Source: Lampris incognitus (taxonomy: Eukaryota; Chordata; Actinopteri; Lampriformes; Lampridae). From it: a stretch of DNA of 64,000 nt. Of this stretch, positions 20,101 to 23,100 are shown in pieces. The translations under genes and the position numbers were made by a program. The stretch spans positions 31,886,957 to 31,950,956 of the forward strand of contig NC_079214.1 in NCBI RefSeq assembly GCF_029633865.1, given 5' to 3'. Positions within the stretch are counted from its first letter, which is position 1; the number at the start of each line of letters is the position of its first letter. The notes under the pieces were generated by a model. The model searched no databases. It had not been told where the DNA came from and saw only the letters and a program-made list of their open reading frames with translations.

Positions 20101-23100
20101 GAGTCTCTAGTTTGAGAAACAGACGCCTCACAGGTCCCCAACTGGCATCTTCATTAAATAGTACCTGTTAGAGCCTGTTTGTGCTGTCCTCTGAAGGGAG
20201 TAGTACACACCGGTGTAGGAAATCTTCAATTTCTTAGCAATTTCTTGCATGGAATAGCCTTCATTTCTAAGAACAAGAATAGACTGTCGAGTTTCAGATG
20301 AAAGTTCTCTTTTTCTGGCCATTTTGAGCGTTTAATTGACCCCACAAATGTGATGCTCCAGAAACTCAATCTGCTCAAAGAAGTGCCCATCCAACCAATC
20401 CAACTTGTGGGAGCTGCTTCTGGAAGCGTGGGGTGCAATTTCTCCAGATTACCTCAACAAATTAACAGCTAGAATGCCAAAGGTCTGCAATGCTGTAATT
20501 GCTGCAAATGGAGGATTCTTTAACGAAAGCAAAGTTTGATGTAAAAAAAATCTTATTTCAAATAAAAATCATTATTTCTAACCTTGTCAATGTCTTGACT
20601 CTATTTTCTATTCATTTCACAACATATGGTGGTGAATAAGTGTGACTTTTCATGGAAAACACAAAATTGTTTGGGTGATCCCAAACTTTTGAACGGTAGT
20701 GTATATATATATATATATATATATATATATATATATATATATATATATATATATATATATATATATATATATATATATATATATACAGTGCATCCGGAAA
20801 GTATTCACACCCCTTCACTTTCCCCACATTTTGTTATGTTACAGCCTTACTCCAAAATGGATTAAATTGCTTTTTTTTTCTCATCATCTACACACAATAC
20901 CCCATAATGACAAAGTGAAAATGGTTTTGTAGATATTTTCGCAAATTTCTTAAAAATAAAAAACTGAAATATTGCATGTACATAAGTATTCACACCCTTT
21001 GCTATGACACTCAAAATTGAGCTCAGGTTCATCCTGTTTCCACTGATCATCCTTGAGATGTTTCTACATCTTGATTGGAGTCCACCCGTAGTAAATTCAA
21101 TTGATCGGACATGATTTGGAAAGGCACACACCTGTCTATATAAGGTCCCACTGTTGACAGTGCATGTCAGAGCAGAAACCAAGCTATGAAGTCAAAGGAA
21201 TTGTCTGTGGACTTCCGAGACAGGATTGTATCGAGGCGCAGATCTGGGGAAGGGTACAAAAAAATTTCTACAGCTTTGAAGTTCCCGAAGAGCACAGTGG
21301 TCTCCATCATTCGTAAATAGAAACCGTTTGGATCCACCAGGACTCTTCCTAGAGCTGGTCACCCAGCCAAACTGAGCAATCGGGGGAGAAGGGCCTTGGT
21401 CAGGGAGGTAACCAAGAACCCGATGGTCACTCTGACTGAGCTCCAGCGTTCCTCTGTGGAGATGGGAGAATCTTCCAGAAGGACAACCATCTCTGCAGCA
21501 CTCCACAAATCAGGCCTTTATGGTAGAGTGGCCAGACAGAAGCCTCTGCTCAGTAAAAGGCACATGACAGCCCGCTTGGAGTTTGCCAGAAAGCACCCTA
21601 AGGACTCTCAGACCATGAGAAACAAGATTCTCTGGTCTGATGAAACCAAGATTGAACTCTTTGGCCTGAATGCCAAACATCACGTCTGGAGGAAACCAAA
21701 CACCTCTCATCACCTTGCTAATACCATCCCTACAGTGAAGCATGGTGGTGGCAGCATCATGCTGTGGGGACGTTTTTCAGCAGCAGGAACTGGGAGACTA
21801 GTCAGGATTGAGGGAAAGATGAATGGAGCAAAGTACAGAGAGATCCTTGATGAAAACCTGCTCCAGAGCACTCAGGACCTCAGACTGGGGCGAAGGTTTA
21901 CCTTTCAACACGACAACGACCCTAAGCACACAGCCAAGACAATGAAGGAGTGGCTTCGGGACAAGTCTGTGAATGTCCTTGAGTGGCCCAGCCAGAGCCC
22001 AGACTTGAACCCCATTGAACATCTCTGGAAAGACCTGAAAATAGCTGTGCAGCGACACTCCCCATCTAACCTTACATAGCTTGAGAGGATCTGCAGAAAA
22101 GAATGGGAGAAATACCCCAAATATAGGTGTGCCAAGCTTGTAGCTTCATACCCAAGAAGACTTGAGGCTGTAATCGCTGCCAAGGGTGCCTCAACCAAGT
22201 ACTGAGTAAAGGGTGTGAATACTTATGTACATGCATTATTTCAGTTTTTTATTTTTAATACATTTACAAAAATTTCTACAAAACCTTTTTCGCTTTGTCA
22301 TTATGGGGTATTGTGTGTAGATTGATGAGAAAAAAAAGGAATTTAATCCATTTTGGAATAAGGCTGTAACATAACAAAATGTGGGGAAAGTGAAAGGGTG
22401 TGAATACTTTCCGGATGCACTGTATATATTAGCAGCTGATGAGTGCACGATGCACGAAACAGGCCTGTACTGCAATGCATTAAAAAATTTTTTCCTGTAT
22501 TTCCTGTATCTGTGTTGATATATATATATAAACCAGTGAGTCAAGTAAATTCTTTATGAGACAGTACAAGCCTGTTTCATGCCATAAGCAATCATCAGCT
22601 GTCAATAAAGCTACTCAGGAAAGAACATACCATTTACTGCCTCGTCATGCACATCATGTGTGCACAACATCCAATGGGGAAGGGAGACGTGCGACATTCA
22701 AAATTTCCAAAACATGTGATCGCTAAGGTCCAATGGGGGGGGGGTTGGTATTTGTCTATTGACATGATTTATTTATAATTACAAAATATGTGCTTGTATC
22801 TATGTCTGCAACCGCTGGCCAATTCATTCCTGTTATTCAATGTGGACATTTCTGGTTTGCAAATGATCAAATATTTTTCAGTTAGGCATAGATTGCACAT
22901 TTTACTACTGGTTGAATATGCTTTGTTCTTTGAGAGGATTTTCCAGGTGGTTGAATAATTAATGTTTCTGTCCGCCAATGACCAAATATAACGGCTTAAA
23001 GATGTTACATTCTTTAAACGGTTGTTTCTAAAGCTACATGTGTGCATTAAACCTCTTTTTGAATGTCCCCTCTGTCAGACCGACGCATGTCTCTATTTTG

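Follow-up and report, generated by a model that had tools for sequence, protein, structure and literature searches.

Two Penelope-like element ends with type I hammerhead motifs probably meet tail to tail on a (TA)n tract in Lampris incognitus

Introduction

Penelope-like elements (PLEs), whose mark is the combination of a reverse transcriptase (RT) with GIY-YIG (PMC11167929), are known to carry hammerhead ribozymes (PMC6155905, PMC7761336), as the first-pass annotation of the DNA studied here had noted. The PLE hammerheads of Cervera and de la Pena (2014) and Lunse et al. (2017), as cited in PMC7761336, are of type I and lie in the pseudo-LTR of elements with RT and GIY-YIG motifs, as those described here probably do, and are reported to act possibly as dimers; the same source, in the excerpt used, calls the role of PLE hammerheads "still a mystery". 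According to the excerpts of PMC7761336 and PMC6155905, known PLE hammerheads usually lack helix III, whereas ours have a helix III of 3 bp. Dimer action has been reported for newt and axolotl hammerheads (PMC6155905, PMC7229834).

The Poseidon PLE of Anolis (PAc; Frangieh et al., PMC11167929) carries a hammerhead upstream of two adjacent start sites of reverse transcription that define a "tail", and it uses AT-rich targets; in both respects it resembles the families described below, whose two 3' end points are putative start sites. Its tail measures 30-40 nt, whereas ours is about 60 nt, and our families differ further in a strong association with (TA)n and, in many copies of one of them, in a sharp 5' end. 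The Anolis hammerhead cut only with the protein present (PMC11167929). In the Penelope families of the rotifer Adineta vaga (PMC3846280), pseudo-LTRs are inverted and mostly head-to-head, like the same-family pairs counted here, and a 31-bp tail at one 3' end is optional, as the tail is here; the pair in our window, in contrast, is tail-to-tail and joins two families. The authors of that study read the head-to-head inverted repeats as self-priming (PMC3846280), and, by analogy, both-strand priming as in the Anolis assay would equally give a head-to-head picture. Among axolotl retrozymes (PMC7229834), HHR_Amex1 has a short helix III with a palindromic tetraloop, like the motifs here, and HHR_Amex2 shares with one of our two motifs a U.U mismatch at the helix II base, yet still cut 22% in an hour and did better as a dimer. 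The axolotl hammerheads lie in tandem repeats of 330-350 bp that give circular RNA, whereas ours lie in dispersed PLE ends.

Hammerheads in PLEs and inverted PLE ends are already known (PMC6155905, PMC7761336, PMC3846280); a literature search, judged mostly by titles, found no title on the two families described here or on tail-to-tail pairs of this kind. The window analysed is a stretch of 64,000 nucleotides on the contig labelled C5 of the 1.48-Gb genome, in which a hammerhead on the plus strand (D) faces one on the minus strand (U) (Table 1). It is highly probable that the 3' ends of two related PLE families, each with a type I hammerhead, here abut tail to tail on one (TA)n tract. The features that go beyond the first-pass annotation are this junction, its recurrence in the genome, the imperfect stem II of the minus-strand motif and the predicted hindrance of cleavage by the pair.

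Table 1. Features of the tail-to-tail junction and their positions in the window
Feature	Position	Strand	Sequence or structure	Basis
Tc1/mariner element	20786..22422	+	Inserted at TA just left of D	Inverted repeats, HTH_Tnp_Tc3_2 and DDE_3; ends read from sequence
D-family PLE end, short form	22428..22519	+	Starts ATTAGCAG, ends GTTGAT	
Type I hammerhead D	22432..22473	+		Descriptor match, covariance-model match
D stem I	22432-35/22470-73	+	4 bp	
D core	22436-42; 22456-58	+	CTGATGA; GAA	
D stem II	22443-55	+	5 bp, GTGCA-CGA-TGCAC	
D helix III	22459-68	+	ACAGGCCTGT, perfect palindrome	
D predicted cleavage	After A22469	+		
(TA)n tract	22518..22530	.	Common to D and U 3' ends	
U-family 3' untranslated end (pseudo-LTR), short form	22531..22980 (upper bound approximate)	-	Ends at TA tract	
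Type I hammerhead U	22603-22560	-		Descriptor match, covariance-model match
U stem I	22603-599/22564-560	-	5 bp, GACAG with CTGTC	
U core	22598-592; 22578-576	-	CTGATGA; GAA	
U stem II	22591-579	-	TTGCTTATGGCAT, 3 bp (UGC/GCA), U.U mismatch at base next to core	
U helix III	22575-566	-	ACAGGCTTGT	
U predicted cleavage	After A22565	-		
Decayed PLE protein fragment	23040..23423	-	CxC...CPL linker, GVTY...CVG	Homology, no Pfam match

Results and Discussion

Two inverted hammerhead motifs

The first-pass annotation had placed two inverted hammerheads, one on each strand, with a gap of 86 bp, and we find exactly these positions. The conserved core CUGANGA ... GAA and the H17 at the cleavage site are exact in both motifs, in agreement with its statement that every conserved core base and a permitted cleavage-site base are present, and the perfect 5-bp stem II that it gave to the plus motif is confirmed. 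Its description of paired stems in both motifs holds fully for D; in U, stem II has only 3 bp and a U.U mismatch. The 3-bp helix III of each motif is capped by four bases, the whole forming a 10-nt palindrome in D. Between the two motifs 10 of 42 positions are different, with core and helices kept in both. A hammerhead descriptor has two matches in the window, namely D and U; applied to simulated first-order Markov windows, it gives 6 matches per 100 windows. Judged by their sequence, D and U are genuine hammerhead motifs, for which activity is predicted.

A third hammerhead variant is seen at L011 1857-1898 (plus strand), L021 502-543 (minus) and L066 875-916 (minus). Its helix III, ACAAGCTTGT, is likewise a perfect palindrome, so that two variants keep self-complementarity by paired changes.

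Genome-wide families and support for the fold

Exact D cores occur in 1505 copies and exact U cores in 3540 copies in the genome, against none for the reversed control of either. We aligned 81 distinct copies from other loci, picked from 112 on the basis of at most one core mismatch and likeness to D, U and third-variant reference cores, with the window loci left out; core conservation in this alignment follows from the choice of rows, and kinship among the copies overstates their independence. On these copies the hammerhead structure pairs 89.9% of the cells; shuffled controls reach 84.5%, and sliding the partners gives 14-46%. At the outer stem I pair, 39 copies have G-C and 34 have A-U, and at the inner stem II pair six standard combinations occur; five pairs have changed on both sides, a number attained in 32 of 500 shuffles. 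Three helices around the core, with stem I open, are supported by covariation, with the caveat of the U.U mismatch and of pair 12-24, which is unpaired in 39 of the 81 copies, mostly as the U.U type.

A covariance model built from the 81 copies gives the window motifs 68.0 and 69.8 bits and nothing above 14.6 bits elsewhere in the window; because the alignment holds, from other loci, one row identical to each window motif, these scores speak for family membership rather than for the fold. Rfam yields no match at gathering level in the window or in six other tested loci. In a relaxed Rfam search of 501 bases, the plus motif matches Hammerhead_HH9 (RF02275), which has the same core and a similar stem I, with a score of 22.9 bits and an E of 0.0026, against a gathering score of 52; for the minus motif there is no match to any hammerhead family. 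The gathering score is a detection threshold and not a defining feature of a hammerhead; with the D and U families lying under the Rfam thresholds, such ribozymes may be under-annotated.

Predicted folding and activity

Folded alone, neither D nor U is more stable than its shuffles, and stability carries no information for the single motifs. In neither is the hammerhead the minimum-energy fold; its distance from the ensemble is 5.0 kcal/mol for D and 4.2 kcal/mol for U, from which modest monomer activity is expected. In D the helix III strand, ACAGGCCUGU, is complementary to itself over its full length; pairing between two copies is predicted at -17.7 kcal/mol for D and -12.3 for U, and dimer action would fit this self-pairing. 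In PLE transcripts the hammerheads probably cut weakly as monomers and better as dimers, aided by the self-complementary helix III.

A transcript across both motifs is predicted to form one hairpin of -61.3 (plus strand) or -74.1 (minus strand) kcal/mol, better than 200 of 200 shuffles in each case, and with the partner present the hammerhead fold lies 28.8 and 42.0 kcal/mol above the ensemble. On the plus strand, transcripts that end no later than 22570 have a gap of 5-8 kcal/mol and one that ends at 22580 has a gap of 14, and the small gap up to 22570 means that cutting during transcription is predicted to be possible. In these models, RNA that reads through the pair is expected to form a single long hairpin and to undergo little cleavage. 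The tail-to-tail pair is in this respect a natural case in which a ribozyme's relative is antisense to it and should switch it off.

Attachment to Penelope-like elements

U lies downstream of the decayed PLE protein fragment, on the same strand, and homology to its pseudo-LTR is found, over varying extents, in 29 other fetched loci. Over window positions 23040-23417 the fragment is 80-81% identical to a longer copy at locus L012, which carries GVIY...YVG as well as a YRDD that we take to be the RT motif; over the RT end, this copy aligns with the window ORF 35402-36202 (25% identity, E 3e-5), whose own end scores 22.4 bits against Pfam GIY-YIG, just under the cut-off of 22.6. For D the corresponding order is seen at L048, where a PLE fragment, 63% identical over 90 residues to that of the window, is followed by a pseudo-LTR and a D hammerhead. 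Pfam gives no match to the window fragment or to any of six fragments from L009, L012, L017, L018 and L048, a PDB sequence search with the PLE fragments returned nothing useful, and no RT was found in the 1701 bases upstream of L012 that were examined for an RT core. Since Pfam recognises none of the fragments, their assignment to PLEs is based on motifs, on homology and on the structure of the ends.

As is expected of PLEs, a pseudo-LTR with a hammerhead follows the ORF, and a tail is optional, arising from two 3' end points. On sequence grounds, D and U are putative 3' ends (pseudo-LTRs) of two related PLE families. The proposal that two distinct Penelope termini were brought together is thereby upheld, with U following the window fragment and D following the related fragment of L048; of the adjacent GIY-YIG fragment named with it, a decayed fragment is recognisable by motif and homology, without a Pfam match.

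How the ends are built

The loci compared comprise those that scored highest against the sequence of the window (L001-L060, of which L001 and L031 are the window itself) and further places from the same match lists (L061-L080); neither set is a random sample, and pair counts among them are biased by likeness to the window and give no rate. The counts on 57 U ends and 50 D copies that follow include the window's own copy once. In most examined copies the 3' end falls on one of two positions separated by about 60 nt, frequently next to (TA)n. Among the U ends, 34 of 57 are short and lie against a TA run of at least 10 in the next 30 nt, 15 have an extra tail of about 60 nt (ending at CAAAGTT in 9 of the 15) and 8 have neither form; at a control offset 240 nt beyond the U ends, none of 53 has a TA run of at least 10. 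For D copies the two positions are ...GTTGATAT and a point about 57 nt further on, where the usual ending is ...AAACGC. We saw 31 D tails, 17 of which end at CGCTA, followed in 13 of these 17 by a TA run of at least 8; by a loose rule, a tail is present in 19 of the 50 D copies, in 14 the short end is followed at once by TA, and 17 show neither form. The tails of the two families are alike and have GCTCCT.ATT.GTTGAGCACTT in common.

On the 5' side, 19 of the 50 D copies begin at ATTA(GCAG) with unrelated sequence upstream, and 19 run on into the pseudo-LTR (18 with ATTA and 1 without). Of the others, 3 copies are partial, and in 9 there is no ATTA and the upstream sequence is unrelated. The sharp 5' end, four bases before stem I, is seen in the D copies of L032, L033, L036, L050 and others. 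Copies broken inside the hammerhead motif are missed by the search; this bias does not account for how few D 5' ends fall within the 55 nt further upstream. The sharp 5' end would be explained by a transcription start or by a strong enzyme stop, and the two 3' end points may, by analogy with the Anolis element, be two reverse-transcription start sites. It is conceivable, if rather doubtful, that the short copies of D move as independent units. Such a unit, a hammerhead leader some 90-150 bp long, would span from a fixed RNA 5' end at ATTAGCAG, perhaps the transcription start, to an internal start of reverse transcription, and would insert into TA repeats with the PLE protein acting in trans. 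If this were true, then together with the head-to-head bias of same-family pairs given below it would make both-strand priming the usual insertion mode in a living genome.

Recurrence and orientation of the pair

Genome-wide, D and U are found tail to tail with cores 70-100 nt apart in 11 exact cases, including the window, compared with 0.056 expected from copy numbers under uniform placement, a figure that ignores clustering. There are 15 exact junctions of a D end, 0-30 nt and a U end, with TA tracts of differing length; the window stands outside these 15, its U end differing by one base. Orientations were counted at the first 100 listed sites of 2505 (U), 1505 (D) and 3540 (U), all on contig C1, the two U lists overlapping. 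In the unselected C1 stretch covered by the U list, which takes in 45 of the 100 D sites listed, the pairs of D with U no more than 300 bp apart number 1 head-to-head, 2 direct and 1 tail-to-tail among the listed sites, indicating that tail-to-tail is not the favoured D-U order. Same-family pairs within 300 bp are head-to-head in 13 cases and tail-to-tail in 2 among 200 listed sites (7:1 for U and 6:1 for D, 100 listed sites each), and the overlapping U core list gives 5 head-to-head, 1 tail-to-tail and 1 direct among its listed sites. Inverted pseudo-LTRs, characteristic of PLEs, are frequent at these ratios among the listed sites.

TA sequence is also present to the left of D, split there by the Tc1/mariner element, which lies between D and the remainder of the TA tract; this suggests the order U, D, Tc1. 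We propose that each family begins reverse transcription chiefly at either of two sites a short way past its hammerhead and that the resulting cDNA is attached to AT-rich DNA, in many cases (TA)n. At this locus U was most likely inserted first, D would then have entered the TA tract at the 3' end of U in the opposite orientation, and the Tc1 element would afterwards have been inserted at a TA left of D, the hammerheads being, in this scheme, cargo of the element ends.

Alternative explanations

Because D partners and TA lengths differ among them, the tail-to-tail junctions most likely arose several times over, one family inserting into the TA tract that closes the other, and not by the copying of a single composite. 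A composite with ribozymes at both ends, itself copied around the genome, would account for the like arrangement and similar spacing at several loci, yet the D partner starts at ATTA in the window and has a partial or full pseudo-LTR upstream in L002 and L006, a more divergent hammerhead takes its place in L003, L004, L014 and L026, and the TA tracts vary in length among the 15 junctions. Slippage could alter TA length and later mutation could blur the partners, which makes the contrary evidence strong but not absolute, and we hold the copied unit to be improbable. We think it very improbable that a single PLE insertion made both halves through both-strand priming or self-priming. Such an origin has precedents in the inverted pseudo-LTRs typical of rotifer Penelopes (PMC3846280) and in the Anolis PLE protein, which cleaves and extends both strands (PMC11167929), and the head-to-head excess of same-family pairs among the listed sites is what it would give; however, it predicts outward-pointing 3' ends and one family, whereas the 3' ends in the window face each other and belong to separate families that differ at 10 of 42 positions.

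That the host has retained the pair as a functional hairpin or processing site is an extremely slim prospect: for both strands the predicted RNA fold is much more stable than that of shuffled sequences (z -5.5 and -8.8), but any inverted pair of related repeats folds so, Rfam miRNA matches are far below gathering, and the adjoining PLE fragment is decayed. Short motifs can arise by chance, as the descriptor matches in simulated windows illustrate, but thousands of exact core copies and the covariation of pairs leave chance with practically no claim on D and U, and we rejected it on the copy numbers. We likewise rejected a non-LTR retrozyme, which consists of small direct tandem repeats with a hammerhead each: direct pairs make up 0 of 15 same-family pairs within 300 bp and 1 of 11 in a second listed set, and the families are attached to PLE protein fragments.

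How PLEs insert and what their hammerheads do are questions on which the D and U ends bear. Thousands of hammerhead-bearing ends are available whose boundaries can be counted, with two main 3' end points per family, a preferred D 5' end, a preference for TA tracts and an orientation bias, and these natural insertions allow the in vitro findings on the Anolis PLE to be tested.

Other features of the window

The minus-strand ORF at 35402-36202, with its RT end and borderline GIY-YIG match, represents a second PLE-like family, decayed pieces of which lie at 32716-33001 and 29475-29657 (both on the minus strand). A fold-back repeat at 19800-20400, with arms at 20000-20039 and 20167-20206 that are 100% complementary, looks by eye like a Tc1-type fragment. 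Tc1/mariner transposase ORFs are found at 2794-3978 and 7006-8055 (minus strand; 395 and 350 aa from stop to stop), a reverse-transcriptase ORF at 27303-28298 (minus strand; RVT_1, E 1.9e-29), an RT RNase H fragment at 45859-46686 (minus strand) and a hAT dimerisation fragment at 54713-55477 (plus strand).
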